Source: Pyrinomonadaceae bacterium
GTDB lineage: Bacteria > Acidobacteriota > Blastocatellia > Pyrinomonadales > Pyrinomonadaceae
DNA: 64,000 bases
NCBI GenBank assembly: GCA_030841085.1
Contig: JAVEDP010000025.1
Location: forward strand, 310,001 to 374,000
Direction: 5' to 3'
Each line of letters starts with the position of its first letter. Positions within the stretch are counted from its first letter, which is position 1. Under the pieces are notes generated by a model that worked only from the letters and a program-made list of their open reading frames with translations, made no database searches and was not told the origin of the DNA. Below are positions 802 to 7,569 of the stretch, one piece after another. Made by a program: the position numbers and the translations under genes.

Positions 802-1470
802 ATGAAGAGTCCAATCTATAATGTCGTTCTTGCTCTGGTATTGACGATTTCGATGAGTGTGACGCAGAACAGAGCGTTGGGACAGTCCATATCAGTTGCT
901 CCCGAAAAAAGGGAGGAGCCTTCACCTCTAAAGGACTACGTCGGCAGGTACGAGCTGGCTTCCAGCGAGATTTCAATTACCACGATTGACGTGACACTTA
1001 CGAAACAAGGACTGTGGGCCAAGCCTTCGCTGGCAGCGAAACGCAAACTCATGGCCCAATCGAAGACGGAGTTTCTGGATGAATTAGAGAATGCCCGCTA
1101 TACCTTCACGAGAGGCGAAAGCAAAAAGGTTGTTAGTTTAACTTTTGAGTATCAGGGCAAAACTTATACTGCGCGAAAACTCGAACCGGTTGCTCCGAGC
1201 CTTACTGGTAATGTGACGTTTCAGTTGCTTAGGTATCCGGACGCCAACATCGTGGCTTTGGCAGGCTCCTTCAATAATTGGAATCAGTCGCAAACACTCT
1301 GCGCTAAAGAGGGGGATCGCTGGGTATGCCGGATGAAGCTCGAGCCAGGAAAGTATCTGTATAAGTTCATCGTCGATGGAGACTGGATTACAGATCCAGA
1401 CAATCGGAACACCGAAGATGACGGCAATGGGAACATCAACTCAGTACTCGTGGTGATGAAGCACGAGTAG
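802..1470 (+). CDS. Secreted protein with C-terminal glycogen-binding (AMPK/CBM48-like) domain
   Basis: 222 residues. An N-terminal hydrophobic segment (about residues 8-27, ending RALGQS) reads as a signal peptide, so the product is exported. The middle, about residues 35-130, is a small beta-rich region starting KDYVGRYEL, the kind of opening seen in DUF3471-type lipocalin-like domains. The C-terminal 85 residues have the fold signature of the AMPK/isoamylase E-set carbohydrate-binding family: ALAGSFNNWN, then W-x-C-x-M-x-L-x-P-G-x-Y-x-Y-K-F-I-V-D-G-x-W and DPDN. A carbohydrate-binding or structural role outside the cytoplasm is inferred; no catalytic domain is present. It is monocistronic and convergent with the redoxin gene that follows. 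The ribosome binding site is weak (GAGAGG). Confidence 0.8.
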   Translation: MKSPIYNVVLALVLTISMSVTQNRALGQSISVAPEKREEPSPLKDYVGRYELASSEISITTIDVTLTKQGLWAKPSLAAKRKLMAQSKTEFLDELENARYTFTRGESKKVVSLTFEYQGKTYTARKLEPVAPSLTGNVTFQLLRYPDANIVALAGSFNNWNQSQTLCAKEGDRWVCRMKLEPGKYLYKFIVDGDWITDPDNRNTEDDGNGNINSVLVVMKHE

Positions 1471-1524: not shown

Positions 1525-2226
1525 TTATTGTGGTTTTGCCGGCGGCTTCGAATTCGAAGGCAAGTTGAACGCGCCCAAGCGGAGGACTTCGCTGACGATC
1601 AAAGTGTCATCAACGATCTGCGAACCCATCCTCTGACGAACTTCCTTTTCGTTAGATGAGCCCGGCCAAACCTGAAGCACGGTTCCGTCCTGGGCGATAA
1701 GCAGATGTGACGGGACAGTCATATCGAGAATTGAGAGTGGCGGCGCAACTTCTCCTTGCCATTCAAATGTCGGTGCAGCAATTCCGATCGAATTTGCGTA
1801 TTCGTAGAAGTTGCTAATTGAATCCACCGGTCTAAAGCAGACCGCGTAGTATTGGACGCCGGCGGGCACGACATGCTCCCGGACAAATTGCATTTCGTCT
1901 TTGGCAACGCTGCACATAGCGCAGGTTGGATTAATAGAAGCCAACATCACTGGTTGTTTGCCGAGAAGTTGCCCAAGTTCCGAGCCGTCAGATGCTTTAA
2001 GTCTTGTCAAGTCGATCTTTTCCCCGAGCGCCGGTCCTCTCCAAATCAAATTTTCAGAACGCAAGGCCTTGAAATCGAACCCTTGTCTGAGCAATAGTGC
2101 TGGCCCGGGTGGTGGACTCTGTCTCCTAACAACCTTGACGATGACACCGGCAACAACCAGGGCAATGATTGCTCCGGCAATCACGCCGGCAAGGAATTTT
2201 GAATACGGCGATCCTGGACTTCTCAT
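1525..2226 (-). CDS. Membrane-anchored thioredoxin-like redoxin
   Basis: 233 residues. One N-terminal transmembrane helix (about residues 11-33) is followed by a periplasmic thioredoxin-fold domain. The active site is NPTCAMC (CxxC), after a beta strand (PVMLAS), as in TlpA/MauD-type proteins; the cis-proline strand is probably VPSHLLIAQDG. The start codon overlaps the stop of the preceding gene (ATGA at 2223-2226), so the two are translationally coupled. With the secreted six-cysteine peptide at the head of the same operon, the likely job is disulfide formation, reduction or isomerisation in that peptide or in another exported client. The MauD analogy is inference; no methylamine dehydrogenase genes are seen nearby. 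Confidence 0.82.
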   Translation of the reverse strand: MRSPGSPYSKFLAGVIAGAIIALVVAGVIVKVVRRQSPPPGPALLLRQGFDFKALRSENLIWRGPALGEKIDLTRLKASDGSELGQLLGKQPVMLASINPTCAMCSVAKDEMQFVREHVVPAGVQYYAVCFRPVDSISNFYEYANSIGIAAPTFEWQGEVAPPLSILDMTVPSHLLIAQDGTVLQVWPGSSNEKEVRQRMGSQIVDDTLIVSEVLRLGAFNLPSNSKPPAKPQ

Positions 2227-3923
2227 TTTGGTTTTCTCGATGAGGCCTTTTGATCAGGCGTGAATTTAGCGGCCTTAGCTCGATACTCGGCGATTGAGAC
2301 CTCGAGGAGGTCCAGGCGTAGTCGCACACGTCTGGGGACTGACGCTATTGAGGAAACAGCTTCCTCCATCGGGTAGTCGTTCGATTCCAGGAGCGAAACC
2401 GGAAAATCACCCTGGATGAGTCTCCTGTTCAACTCTGCAAGACTGTCGCTGTCATTAGTCTCGTCGCTTTTGACTCGATTCAGGGAACCAATCGCATCCT
2501 TGAAAGCCTCAATCGCGTCACCATTCAAATGGCACTTAGAATAGAGTCGAACTACCATCAGGTACCAGTTAGCCTTATCCAAATCCGGCATCTCGGCCTT
2601 GGCCAGGTCCTTGCGAGATTCGTCAAGGAAATCACGGGCGATTTGGAGAGATGAATCTTTGGGTAGCATGTCGACAAAATAGATCTTAGTGAACGCCCGC
2701 AGCGAGTCAGGAACCGCCTTGATTACCTGCTGCATTCCGTAGGCATCGTCGCGTTTAATAAACTCTATCGCCAAAGCTGCGGCCCAATCACGGCGCCAGG
2801 TTCCCCAGATGTTTATGTACTTCCGCTCCTCCTCGTTCATGCTCTCGAGAATCTTAATCGCAAGTTCAAAGTTTTTCTGTTGTGCGGCCAGACGGGCGGC
2901 CCGGGCCAGATACTCGGGCCGTTTCATTTTTTTATCTACTGTTTGATCCGCCTGGCGCAACAGGCTCTCTACCGTCTCAGGTAACCCGATTGACTGCGGA
3001 TCGGTGTCGGCAGCGGCTTGATTTCTCGACTCAAAACAGATCCTCACAATCTGTCGCACCAGGTCGGCTCGTTGAGGCTGTAGTCTATCGAAATGAGTTT
3101 GCAGCCCTTCGACCAATGCGGGCGCCACCCCGCAATCTCGTACTCCTCGGCTCGCTAACAAAGCTGTCTGTTGCTGAAGATAGTCGGCTAGTATGAGAAG
3201 CATCTGTCTGCGAAGAGTATCCGGGGGCACAATTGCGGGGTCGTAGACGGTGCCTAATAGTTCAGGGAAGGCGGCATAACGTAATGAATTTAGAAAGTCA
3301 TCCCCATAAGTCTTTCCAGCTACGGTTAGCGCTTCACTGAAAAGCTGATTCGCCAGCAACGGGTCGCGCCTTCGCAAATCCCACAGCAAATTCTGGAGCG
3401 TTCTGGGAGTGCCGACACGAAGTGCCATCGAGCCCAACGCAGCCGCCCGACGCGGATCTGTTTTCAAAACCGCCAGCGCCGTTTCGACCAGCGTTTCCGA
3501 GATTGTAGTTCGCTCGGTCTCGGAAGGATCCGGTTCACCCGAGGTTAATACATTCTGCAATCGTTCCCAAAGTTTTTGATCGGCGGTGGCAATGACAGGC
3601 AACAACGAATGCGCTACGGCCAAGCGCTTTCGCCGCTCAACGCCGCTTTCTTTTGCCGGCTCCAGTTCGACGGCCTCCACGGCCTTTAGCAGCCACTTGC
3701 GCGCCTGACTGCGATCAATGTTCCACCACTGGGCTCCAAGTTGGCCAAGCACCAGCGCGCTATCCAAAGTTTCTAATGACTTAGCGTCCTTAAGGGAATC
3801 ATTGGTGAGACTCTGGGCTCTTTGGAGCCAGGCATCCTGGGGCCGTTGAGTTTCCTGCGCTGCAGTGAGGGAAAAAACGCTAAGTACGATTATGATCGGC
3901 AAGCAGATCCGAGTAATACTCAT
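2223..3923 (-). CDS. Secreted alpha-helical repeat protein, unknown function
   Basis: 566 residues from the chosen start. The frame is open 31 codons further upstream, but the ATG at 3923 has an AAAGGTG ribosome binding site six bases away and begins a typical signal peptide (MSITRICLPIIIVLSVFSL, cleavage near TAAQE). The mature protein is rich in Ala, Leu and Arg and looks like helical TPR/HEAT-type pairs, such as ARKWLLKAVEAVE and RAAALGSMALRVG. No catalytic motif is seen. It lies 67 bases after the Cys-rich peptide gene and overlaps the redoxin gene by four bases, so the three form an operon. A scaffold or chaperone role for the peptide or redoxin is a guess from context only. Confidence 0.75.
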   Translation of the reverse strand: MSITRICLPIIIVLSVFSLTAAQETQRPQDAWLQRAQSLTNDSLKDAKSLETLDSALVLGQLGAQWWNIDRSQARKWLLKAVEAVELEPAKESGVERRKRLAVAHSLLPVIATADQKLWERLQNVLTSGEPDPSETERTTISETLVETALAVLKTDPRRAAALGSMALRVGTPRTLQNLLWDLRRRDPLLANQLFSEALTVAGKTYGDDFLNSLRYAAFPELLGTVYDPAIVPPDTLRRQMLLILADYLQQQTALLASRGVRDCGVAPALVEGLQTHFDRLQPQRADLVRQIVRICFESRNQAAADTDPQSIGLPETVESLLRQADQTVDKKMKRPEYLARAARLAAQQKNFELAIKILESMNEEERKYINIWGTWRRDWAAALAIEFIKRDDAYGMQQVIKAVPDSLRAFTKIYFVDMLPKDSSLQIARDFLDESRKDLAKAEMPDLDKANWYLMVVRLYSKCHLNGDAIEAFKDAIGSLNRVKSDETNDSDSLAELNRRLIQGDFPVSLLESNDYPMEEAVSSIASVPRRVRLRLDLLEVSIAEYRAKAAKFTPDQKASSRKPK

Positions 3924-3990
3924 GCACACCTTTCGCTTTATGTCACTCGGGCGGCTGGCTCTGGAAAAGTCAACCGCCCTGAGTGACTGC

Positions 3991-4251
3991 TTAGGGAGTT
4001 TTGACTTTACAGCCAATACCGGAAGGGCAATTTGGTCCCGAGAACGAGCACGTCATATTGGGGGGATTGCCATTGCAGCCCCAAAATGTGCAGCCGGCGG
4101 GATAAGAATTGCATACCAGGTTCCCGCCGTAGTTTTGTGCAAAGGCCTGCTTGGTAAATGTGCCGGAACTGTTTAAGGCGCCGAACATCGCGCCCAGCAA
4201 CAGCAGGGCTACTAATCCAGAACGAATCGAACGTCTGGTGGGCTTCTTCAT
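3991..4251 (-). CDS. Small secreted cysteine-rich peptide
   Basis: 86 residues. The start ATG at 4251 follows an AAGGAGA ribosome binding site, better than the upstream in-frame start at 4278. A long signal peptide with a twin-Arg-containing basic N-region (MKKPTRRSIRSG) and a hydrophobic core ends near KQAFAQ. The predicted mature peptide is about 48 residues with six cysteines, Gly/Pro/Asn-rich, and little other hydrophobicity (for example GCNGNPPNMTC and GPNCPSGIGC). This is the composition of a disulfide-stabilised exported peptide. It is the first gene of an operon with a helical secreted protein and a thioredoxin-like protein. No family was recognised; a bacteriocin, a RiPP-like precursor or a small structural protein are all possible. 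Confidence 0.7.
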   Translation of the reverse strand: MKKPTRRSIRSGLVALLLLGAMFGALNSSGTFTKQAFAQNYGGNLVCNSYPAGCTFWGCNGNPPNMTCSFSGPNCPSGIGCKVKTP

Positions 4252-4432
4252 GATGATTCTCCTTCGATAAGGAAGCACTTGTCCGGGGGATGGAAGTGCC
4301 TGTCGTTGAGGAAAGGCATGATCTCAAGGTGACTGCCAATACCTAGTGAAGCTGCGTCTTGCTTGAGACTGCAAGATAAGGAACATCGGGAGACTGTCAC
4401 ATCTGTTGCATCCTGTCAATGAATTTTGGCTG

Positions 4433-6781
4433 TTAGTCAGGAGTTCGCCGGAATCGATTGGGTGAGTAAATCGTCCAACAGACGGCAGCGATTCCAAGCA
4501 AGCAAATCAGCATCGATGCTAACCGCAAACCTGAACTATGCCATCTGAGAGATGGCTCATCCGAATCAAGCATTGCCATTCCACCTTGCCCGGTGAGAAA
4601 GACCGCGCTTCCCTTACCAGTTGTCCAAGCTGGGAAGTAAGCCACGTTGGTTCGCCAGAGACGTAACGAATGAGGCCACTGCTGCGCGGATGGTTGTTCC
4701 CAAGCGGCAATCCTTTGCGATAGCGCCACAAGGAAGAGTTTCCCTGAAGCGTAATGCTGCGGGTTGAAGATCTGGTAAGCGGCAAAGCTTTGCTTTCTTG
4801 CCTCGACTTGCCGCGCCAGCTCGGAGCCGTCGTCTATCAGCAGAACGTTCAGTTTAGGTGCCGCCACATTCAGGCGGAAGAGCCATTCATCGTTTGCCGA
4901 ACGGAGAGACGAGGGGTAGATCACAATAGTCGCGGCGGGCAGCCGCGCGATCACACTCCACGGATCTGTCGTCGGACTTTGCGCCCAGAGGACGCTGACT
5001 TCGGGATGTCCATCGAAGGCCAACTCTTCCCACAGGTTGAAGAGGTCTATGTCGTCCGGCCAGCGATTCTTAAAATGGGGAGCCATCCATGCGACAACGG
5101 GTGCCGAGCTGACGCTTTCCATCGCAGGCGAAGGTGGCAGCAAGTTTAAGAAGAGATACCATCCCTCGATGTTCCACAACAGCCTCACGCTCGGAGTGCT
5201 CTGCAAGCGTTCAACCTGCTCAGGCGAATTAACTAGGTAGTATACGACTCCCAAATGACTTGCTAATTTGAATGCATTCTCGGGAGTAATCTGCATGTTG
5301 GCGGCCCGGCTTAGCGCCGTCCCGTCAATCTCAAAGTTTTCCTGCGAGGTGGAGAAGAGGTTAGTCACCGCGGTTGCGAGAGGCGCCGTGATTGCCTGCT
5401 CGCGAAAGATCGACCACAGTATCGGACGTTGGTCCATCGCAATCTGGTGGGCCAAAGCGCGCGACGTGGCCAGCTCCCTTATCCCACCGCCGGCCGAGTT
5501 AAAGATAGCATTTGGTTTGACGATTTCGACCAACACCATGCCCGGTGGCAAGTCTCTGACCGCACTACGAACCTTACCAAGCGCGTCGGTTTCTGCTGGA
5601 GAGAGTGACGCGATTCCGAAGTTTTGCCACGGATGGACCAGAGCCAGAGCAACGACGCACAGCACGAGCGCAGACTTGTGTAACCAACCGCCGCCAACCA
5701 AATCCCGCAGGGTTCGGGAAATCAGCAAGGCACCGGGGACCGTACATAGAAGAATGGCTCCGGAAACCACGCGTGCGGGTTGAAAAGGAATCATCTTCAA
5801 CACTCCGCCAAGCGGTGTCAAAGCAGCGACCGCTACAAGCAGCAGGGCAACGCATAAGGAGGCGAGCGCGGGTTTGCGCCGACGCTCAGACCAGGCGACC
5901 CAAAGACAAATAGGCCAAACGACGTTCAGTGCGCCGAGTCCGGAGAATAAGACTGGGGCTTCTAGAGGGCGGCCGATAGAATAGGTGTACCAGCGAATGA
6001 GCGGAATTAACCAGATAGACGCGATCAAGATTGGCGCAAGTAGAAGTACTACCACCCGGATTGTTTTATCAATCAGTTCAGCCGAACCTAGGCTGGTCAG
6101 CCGCGACCTGCTTCGCCAACAATCGAAAATGAGCCATGAAAAGGCAAACGCAGCGGCCAGCGGTAACACGTGAACGTTCGTGAGAATAAGAGCCGTTAGC
6201 GAAATCGTCGCCAGCGCCGCCGCTGCCCGTGAGCGTCGGGCGTGAGGCAACGCTCCGCACCAGACGCAGAAGAACAGAAATCCCAAAGTATGCGTGTAAA
6301 GACCAACTTCAAATAAGCCCAGAAGTCCGACCCCGCCAAGCGAAGCCAGGTTGGAACCGCAAGCGATGACTCCTGCCCAGGCAGAACTCATCGTCGCCTC
6401 GACTGAAGACAAACCGAGCCTCCTTCCGAGCCCAAAAAGCGCGCCCGGCAGTCCTGCAAACGAGGCGGTAGTCAGTAACTTCGCAGCAAGAGTGGCATCG
6501 ATGCCGCTGAACTTCATGAGAGTGGCGCCGAGCCAATAGAAGAGCGGCGGATAATAAATAGGAAACGGCATACCGCCAAAAAACTCCGGCAGCCATCCTT
6601 GAATATCCGGGTAAACATGGATTGCGTACAGATGTAGAGCTGCTACGTGCCCGGAGCCATCTGCGCCACCTATCGTGGCGAGTGTCCAATAGTTCCATAA
6701 GAATCTTCCGCTCAAGAGGAGCCACCACAAGTGGAGGCTCACGATGAGTAGCCAGCGACGCTTCTTGAGTGGTCTAGCCAT
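4433..6781 (-). CDS. Large polytopic membrane protein, glycosyltransferase-C/PTPS-related-like
   Basis: 782 residues from the ATG at 6781 (MARPLKKRRW); a GTG at 6829 would add 16 residues. About ten hydrophobic helices fill the N-terminal 400 residues, followed by a soluble C-terminal half of about 350 residues and a final transmembrane helix near the C-terminus (about residues 750-772). Early luminal features such as GGADGSGHVAALHLYAI and GWLPEFFGGMPFPIYYPPLFYWLG resemble the 6-pyruvoyl-tetrahydropterin-synthase-related membrane family (PF10131) and other lipid-linked sugar transferases of the GT-C type. An envelope glycan or lipid role is inferred from that resemblance. No partner genes for glycan synthesis lie beside it, and it seems to stand alone. 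Confidence 0.65.
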   Translation of the reverse strand: MARPLKKRRWLLIVSLHLWWLLLSGRFLWNYWTLATIGGADGSGHVAALHLYAIHVYPDIQGWLPEFFGGMPFPIYYPPLFYWLGATLMKFSGIDATLAAKLLTTASFAGLPGALFGLGRRLGLSSVEATMSSAWAGVIACGSNLASLGGVGLLGLFEVGLYTHTLGFLFFCVWCGALPHARRSRAAAALATISLTALILTNVHVLPLAAAFAFSWLIFDCWRSRSRLTSLGSAELIDKTIRVVVLLLAPILIASIWLIPLIRWYTYSIGRPLEAPVLFSGLGALNVVWPICLWVAWSERRRKPALASLCVALLLVAVAALTPLGGVLKMIPFQPARVVSGAILLCTVPGALLISRTLRDLVGGGWLHKSALVLCVVALALVHPWQNFGIASLSPAETDALGKVRSAVRDLPPGMVLVEIVKPNAIFNSAGGGIRELATSRALAHQIAMDQRPILWSIFREQAITAPLATAVTNLFSTSQENFEIDGTALSRAANMQITPENAFKLASHLGVVYYLVNSPEQVERLQSTPSVRLLWNIEGWYLFLNLLPPSPAMESVSSAPVVAWMAPHFKNRWPDDIDLFNLWEELAFDGHPEVSVLWAQSPTTDPWSVIARLPAATIVIYPSSLRSANDEWLFRLNVAAPKLNVLLIDDGSELARQVEARKQSFAAYQIFNPQHYASGKLFLVALSQRIAAWEQPSAQQWPHSLRLWRTNVAYFPAWTTGKGSAVFLTGQGGMAMLDSDEPSLRWHSSGLRLASMLICLLGIAAVCWTIYSPNRFRRTPD

Positions 6782-7569
6782 GATTCGGGCGATTTCCAGA
6801 AGGAGCGCATTACTTCCCCTGCTGCACACGAGTTTGTGTCATGGAGAATCTACACTCCTAGGGAACCAGTGCAGTAGGGGTCAAGCGAAGCCGCGAATGT
6901 GACGGAGTGCAAAGGATTCGCCCGATTAGAACTGGGTGGGCAGGCTTCAATGACGGCGGGATTATAGGCTACCCAAGGAGGTTTGCCTATGCTGAGTTTT
7001 CTCTCCAAATGAGCGAACCGGTCATCATGCGTTCCACCTCGACTCGAATGAGGGGGTTCGAAATGTACCTCGCGTCAGATTCGTTTCATTGACGAGGGAA
7101 TTAGAGCTTGGCCAGTGCGCAGGAAGAACGCGAGGACTGACGAGATGTCCCATTAGCCGACATAAAGCGGACCGTCTGACCCTTGAGACTTGCGATGGAA
7201 GTTCCGACAACCGAAAGATGCCCTTCTTGATCTTGCGTTTCGAGTTTTCCTCATGGTACGTATTTATTTTTTGGACACTACGAATGTTCTACTGCCCTGG
7301 CAATTCAGCAATCATCAAATCGGGCAATACCCAAACCTCAATCAAGAAATCCCTAGTAAATTGAGAGTCGATTTGCGTTTGGAGGACCCGCAACGGTCAT
7401 AAACAGCCAGCAATTGCTGAGGTTGAGGGAGTCGAAAATCGATGCGCTGTTATTGCGCTGTTTTGAGGGACTCCAGGGGCATGAGGGACTGCAGGGATAA
7501 CTGATTTACGCTCGCTAAGCTTTAGGAGAAAAAGATTTGTTGTGTACAATGCACTTAAGACGCAGCGAC
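6782..7569. other. Intergenic region before tRNA-Val
   Basis: About 790 bases without a supported gene. Short open frames on both strands (for example 7089-7364 plus and 7025-7210 minus) have no recognisable domain, no clear ribosome binding site and overlap each other. A TACAAT box at 7545-7550, 20 bases before the tRNA, is a plausible -10 element for the tRNA; no good -35 is seen. Confidence 0.5.

Follow-up and report, generated by a model that had tools for sequence, protein, structure and literature searches.

Three adjacent minus-strand genes in the DNA analysed here, a window of 64,000 nucleotides from a Pyrinomonadaceae bacterium, raise the question whether they form a dedicated unit in which a six-cysteine exported peptide is the product, a helical exported protein handles it and a redoxin matures it. 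This was proposed in an initial annotation of the DNA, with the suggestion that the system may be undescribed. All three open reading frames were confirmed at their positions, and they form one operon in the order peptide, helical protein, redoxin (Table 1). The first two genes are separated by a gap of 67 bp. Convergent with the 3' end of the operon lies a gene (window positions 802-1470) for an exported protein with a DUF3471 domain and an AMPK1_CBM glycogen-binding type domain.

Table 1. Coordinates of the operon and its elements in the window.
Feature	Position	Strand	Details
AAGGAG ribosome-binding site of the peptide gene	4259..4264	-	7 nt upstream of the ATG; from the sequence
Precursor of the six-Cys exported peptide	3991..4251	-	86 aa; 86 codons, ATG at 4251, TAA at 3991; probable mature part about 48 aa; homologues at the same place in G055, G031, G106 and G100
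Export signal of the peptide: basic N-terminus, hydrophobic core GLVALLLLGAMFGAL, putative cleavage after AFA	4138..4251	-	From the sequence
RNA hairpin between the peptide and helical-protein genes, no U-tract	3942..3987	-	-33.7 kcal/mol, z=-5.0
Exported helical-repeat (TPR-like alpha-solenoid) protein, 566 aa	2223..3923	-	ATG at 3923, TGA at 2225-2223; no curated Pfam/NCBIfam match above cut-off
Membrane-anchored thioredoxin-fold redoxin (ResA/TlpA-like), 233 aa	1525..2226	-	Coupled to the helical gene: ATG at 2226-2224 overlaps its TGA (ATGA, 2226-2223)
CAMC active-site motif, redoxin residues 102-105	1912..1923	-	From the sequence and an alignment of relatives

Cleavage of the peptide precursor at AFA|QN, as its sequence suggests, would leave a mature part of 48 residues with six cysteines, in agreement with the length given in the initial annotation. 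The cysteines are spaced C-x6-C-x4-C-x8-C-x6-C-x5-C. Searches of Pfam and NCBIfam with the window peptide recognised no family, and its profile retrieved only chance matches from the PDB (zinc fingers and a Rieske protein). A single-sequence search of the genome contigs gave no match either, because the residues outside the cysteines are too variable. A peptide profile built without the genome G106, however, recovers the G106 peptide with E=3.9e-11, 2 kb from a separately found redoxin gene. The G106 cassette was thus recovered twice independently, by redoxin and by peptide, which rules out that the peptide is a chance open reading frame.

The same three genes stand in the same order in four other Blastocatellia genomes, mainly of Pyrinomonadaceae (G055, G031, G106 and G100), which is the gene-neighbourhood conservation that the initial annotation had asked for. 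The cassette proteins are 23-37% identical between genomes, and the conserved cassettes occupy unrelated genomic sites. Only the cysteines and one glycine are invariant in the peptide alignment, C-x(5-11)-C-x3-G-C-x(8-12)-C-x(6-10)-C-x5-C; the leader is also similar among the relatives, and the G100 peptide contains four extra cysteines. The redoxin subfamily is rare, with members in 10 of the 162 genomes of the class at E<=1e-6 and just two weak, distant matches outside it. A tree of the helical proteins places the window subfamily in one supported group (SH-aLRT 100). No fourth conserved gene was seen around the five window-type cassettes. The conserved order and the independent finds of peptide and redoxin support the view that the three genes are one unit.

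Absence of the peptide gene from a locus that keeps both partners had been named as the observation that would speak against this unit, and no subfamily relative with both partner genes intact displays it. Two weaker cases come closer. A paralogous operon on contig C41 of the same genome retains intact helical and redoxin genes next to a peptide gene without signal sequence, and the copy in G001, which we left out of the cassette count, looks decayed, with a broken helical gene and no peptide found. In G040, G116 and G128 the helical gene occurs alone, without a redoxin and without an intact peptide.

The C41 peptide lost its signal sequence in a rearrangement that involved pieces of the large membrane-protein gene situated upstream of the operon in the window (4433-6829). 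Two such fragments, corresponding to window positions 5883-6001 and 6622-6766, are present in opposite orientations at L010:6799-7081 (G000:C41), immediately before the paralogous operon, where they take the place of the peptide signal sequence. Because these fragments are 79-80% identical to the window, whereas the operon proteins of window and paralog are 34-44% identical, the rearrangement probably took place long after the operon duplication. A short C-terminal remnant of a third redoxin copy was observed 190 kb from the window operon (G000:C31:121659-121847; L100, L016), and neither a helical nor a peptide gene was found near it.

The intercistronic RNA hairpin that follows the peptide gene, which the initial annotation did not mention, is stable relative to shuffled sequences, none of which was as good. 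A hairpin is found in the same place in the C41 paralog (z=-3.1) and is weak at the corresponding site in G055. In G031, G100 and G106 the gap is shorter and forms no hairpin. A Rho-independent terminator is ruled out by the lack of a U-tract. The element is possibly a stabiliser or an attenuator that sets the level of the peptide above that of its partners; located directly after the peptide gene, it would probably cause more peptide than partner protein to be made.

The AlphaFold2 model of the second gene product is all-helical (mean pLDDT 77), as expected for the exported helical repeat protein of the initial annotation. Scores against the Pfam TPR models fall below the cut-offs (TPR_19, 12.3 bits against 25; ARM_TT21, 18.5 against 27), and VIA-align retrieved no clear homologue above the helical-repeat background. 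The structural neighbours of the model include TPR-like solenoids and TPR superhelices, Rap proteins among them, and the protein is predicted to be a solenoid. Judging from the analogy of Rap and other peptide-binding TPR proteins, the peptide might be an extracellular signal and the solenoid its receptor or carrier, and genes for AraC-type regulators do adjoin two related cassettes (L122, L150). However, the helical protein carries an export signal and hence is not a cytoplasmic Rap-type receptor, the Z values lie within the range common to any helical repeat, and the window-type cassettes contain no regulator. We regard a signalling pair of this type as quite improbable.

In the AlphaFold2 model of the redoxin, a transmembrane helix (residues 7-35) precedes a thioredoxin fold, with pLDDT above 90 over most of the body; together with the CAMC motif and the ATGA overlap, this bears out the earlier description of a membrane-tethered CxxC redoxin coupled to the helical gene. 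Foldseek relates the model to ResA with E of about 1e-6 and TM-scores up to 0.73 by target length, the closest solved structures being of the ResA/TlpA type and a Bacteroides disulfide isomerase. A search of the PDB with a redoxin profile likewise leads to ResA (E=0.007). The score against Pfam AhpC-TSA is 13.7 bits, below the gathering threshold of 26 bits, and NCBIfam gives no match above cut-off. Because the relationship rests on fold and profile, we term the protein ResA/TlpA-like and do not file it as a member of that family.

The first cysteine of the active-site motif is invariant in all seven aligned relatives and the second is present in six of them. The motifs in the set are CAMC, CGMC, CSMC and CGAC, and in G106 CAAA, where only the first cysteine is kept. 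As this redoxin shares its locus with an intact six-Cys peptide, a two-cysteine oxidase cycle is not required in every case. A single nucleophilic cysteine can reshuffle disulfides but cannot fully oxidise a substrate, and for this reason we lean towards an isomerase or reductase, to which the glycine-containing motifs CGMC and CGAC also point by analogy. The host genome encodes an oxidising VKOR, which would supply disulfides, and a reducing DsbD-like protein, which would supply electrons, so that an oxidising and an isomerising redoxin would both be possible.

ResA/TlpA-type enzymes usually act as reductants. With the DsbD-like electron donor in the host and the high cysteine density of some related peptides (L077 and L094, with 10 Cys), this would be compatible with an envelope device for redox or metal handling, in which the redoxin would keep the peptide reduced so that it could act as a thiol or metal buffer or sensor. 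The window peptide, on the other hand, has six spaced cysteines, no CxxC pairs and no histidine, a pattern more like that of disulfides, and no metal-related genes lie alongside. Such a device appears improbable to us.

The helical protein belongs to a much wider exported family, found with a broad profile in 135 of the 162 class genomes, often in several copies per genome. Elsewhere in the phylum sample, only two genomes from outside the class have it. We examined 80 loci of this family, taken from the best-scoring matches and therefore not random, with related genomes that are not independent. A peptide was called as a small open reading frame within 3.2 kb that encodes a signal sequence and five or more cysteines, signal sequences being recognised by a crude script and not by a validated predictor. 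This yielded 20 such frames on the same strand as the helical gene (at 17 loci) and none on the opposite strand, an agreement that is partly expected because any operon would give it. Control DNA of 154 kb, read on both strands, contained no exported open reading frame with at least five cysteines.

A CxxC redoxin adjoins the helical gene at about 20 loci, and its presence goes together with that of a peptide: 14 of the 21 loci with a redoxin have one, against 5 of the 59 without (odds ratio 21.6, Fisher p=5e-7, with related genomes not independent). The five latter loci combine peptide and helical protein without redoxin. The automatic count overlooked peptides that inspection by eye revealed at L096, L128 and L150, so that the association is understated on that side. 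The peptides sort by eye into roughly eight unrelated types, and none of the related peptides tested was recognised by Pfam or NCBIfam. Sets of peptide, redoxin and helical protein with unrelated peptides occur at L077, L096, L122, L128, L132, L135, L139, L141, L144, L159 and L172. At about 60 of the 80 loci (about three quarters) no Cys-rich peptide was detected; the helical family as a whole is thus not dedicated to peptides, and one large clade of it has the appearance of a conserved paralog in a different gene neighbourhood. Peptide-bearing members are clustered in the helical-protein tree without forming one clade: the tree requires 8 changes, where shuffling gives a mean of 14.

Several individual loci differ in composition. 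Another helical-family gene of the same genome is directly preceded by a different six-Cys exported peptide (L175:5172-5423, minus strand; G000:C15 near 392 kb), and in G015 four related six- or seven-Cys exported peptides follow a helical-family gene in tandem (L169:4902-6232). AraC-type regulators are located upstream of peptide-redoxin-helical cassettes of another subtype (L122:6812-7231, L150:354-719), which also hold an exported protein of about 220 aa. At L079:5991-6763 (G000:C15) a helical gene stands with a 214-aa exported partner and a truncated redoxin, without peptide, as a decaying cassette of the other subtype. The genes found ahead of the helical-family members at L127:4909-5547 and L130:4986-5642 encode exported proteins that have RHS-like repeats and a C-terminal end which is hydrophobic and contains four Cys; these may represent a further type of product. 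In G010, the gene of a beta-propeller-like exported protein (L096:4294-5538) is followed by those of a six-Cys peptide, a redoxin and a helical protein, an arrangement resembling that of peptide loci in Bacteroidota.

The peptide might also be a secreted antimicrobial, namely a Sec-exported, disulfide-stabilised bacteriocin with the two partners as its folding factors. It is small, Cys-rich, exported and fast-diverging, it varies between strains, one locus (L169) carries as many as four variants in tandem, and the cassettes occupy unrelated sites. The five cassettes, which do encode a small exported peptide with conserved disulfide-type cysteines, nevertheless lack a linked immunity gene, a dedicated ABC transporter and a leader peptidase, and no bacteriocin family of Pfam or NCBIfam is matched. 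Without immunity and transporter genes a classical bacteriocin is disfavoured, and we rate an antimicrobial as unlikely, while the variability and the tandem copies at L169 would fit a role in conflict or signalling.

We favour, with slightly better than even confidence, the view that the operon is a self-contained cassette for producing, exporting and folding a small disulfide-rich peptide, dedicated to the export and disulfide maturation of variable secreted peptides. The peptide would leave the cell by the general secretory route, using its own signal peptide. Outside the membrane the exported helical-repeat protein may hold or present it, and the anchored redoxin, with its ResA/TlpA-like fold and CxxC motif, would exchange or isomerise disulfides until the six cysteines are correctly paired. 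The terms 'handling' and 'maturation' for the two partners are inferred from conserved linkage and predicted fold. As one helical family accompanies many unrelated Cys-rich peptides, the helical protein and the redoxin have the look of a maturation module that is reused while its products, the peptides, change. Against this view stand the CAAA redoxin of G106, the roughly 60 helical-family loci where no Cys-rich peptide was detected, the five loci that combine peptide and helical protein without redoxin, and the relatives in which the helical gene occurs alone.

The operon is a real, conserved and apparently undescribed type. The initial annotation was right that the first two genes fall in no described family, as neither Pfam nor NCBIfam gives a match above cut-off. 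Its suggestion of an undescribed system stands in that respect and needs widening in another, since the window peptide is one of many types on a helical family that extends across Blastocatellia. We tentatively propose, giving it somewhat less than even weight, a lineage-wide secreted-peptide system of Blastocatellia in which one exported solenoid family and companion redoxins mature many unrelated disulfide-rich peptides, as a bacterial counterpart of the dedicated folding that such secreted peptides undergo in eukaryotes. Few soil bacteria are as abundant, or as little understood, as the Acidobacteriota. Should the cassettes produce secreted peptides rich in disulfides, they would be a so far unexploited source of stable natural peptides and a natural set of peptides paired with folding partners, from which it could be learned how one scaffold and redoxin handle many cysteine patterns. 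The recurrent gene pairing is a simple route to peptides that family searches miss.

Among known systems, ResA/TlpA-type proteins such as Bacillus ResA share the N-terminal transmembrane anchor, thioredoxin fold and CxxC motif of the cassette redoxin, and provide its best profile and fold matches in the PDB. Identity is about 20%, however, the cassette redoxins lack the proline of the ResA CEPC motif, and they are linked to Cys-rich peptides instead of cytochrome c maturation genes. The helical protein resembles TPR and alpha-solenoid proteins in its predicted all-helical repeat array and TPR-superhelix neighbours, but it is exported, scores below the Pfam TPR cut-offs and, within the phylum sample, is almost confined to Blastocatellia. 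The NVEALA peptides of Bacteroidota (PF14055) are likewise small, exported and Cys-containing, and have a long leader followed by an A-x-A boundary. Membership of the window peptide is not supported, as neither it nor its genome gives a PF14055 match, and the best case, the L135 peptide (ANVTALA), reaches only E=0.66, far below the cut-off. A search of open-licence literature gave nothing relevant on NVEALA, on Cys-rich peptides of Blastocatellia or on similar peptide-redoxin clusters.

Dedicated oxidoreductases also serve disulfide-stabilised bacteriocins, for example sublancin with BdbB. There, as in the cassette, the peptide gene adjoins that of a thiol-disulfide enzyme, but the cassette has no ABC exporter, immunity gene or glycosyltransferase, and export is by signal peptide. 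In the operon of methylamine dehydrogenase, MauD and MauE accompany the small subunit, so that a dedicated redoxin is encoded with an exported protein of many disulfides. The cassette likewise pairs a dedicated redoxin with an exported disulfide-type product; unlike the Mau operon, it has no enzyme subunit, MauE-like membrane partner or cofactor, and its product is a small peptide. The redoxin, the solenoid and the Cys-rich peptide are each of a known general kind; their combination, the peptide families and the recurrence across the class turned up in no curated library and in none of the open-licence papers searched.
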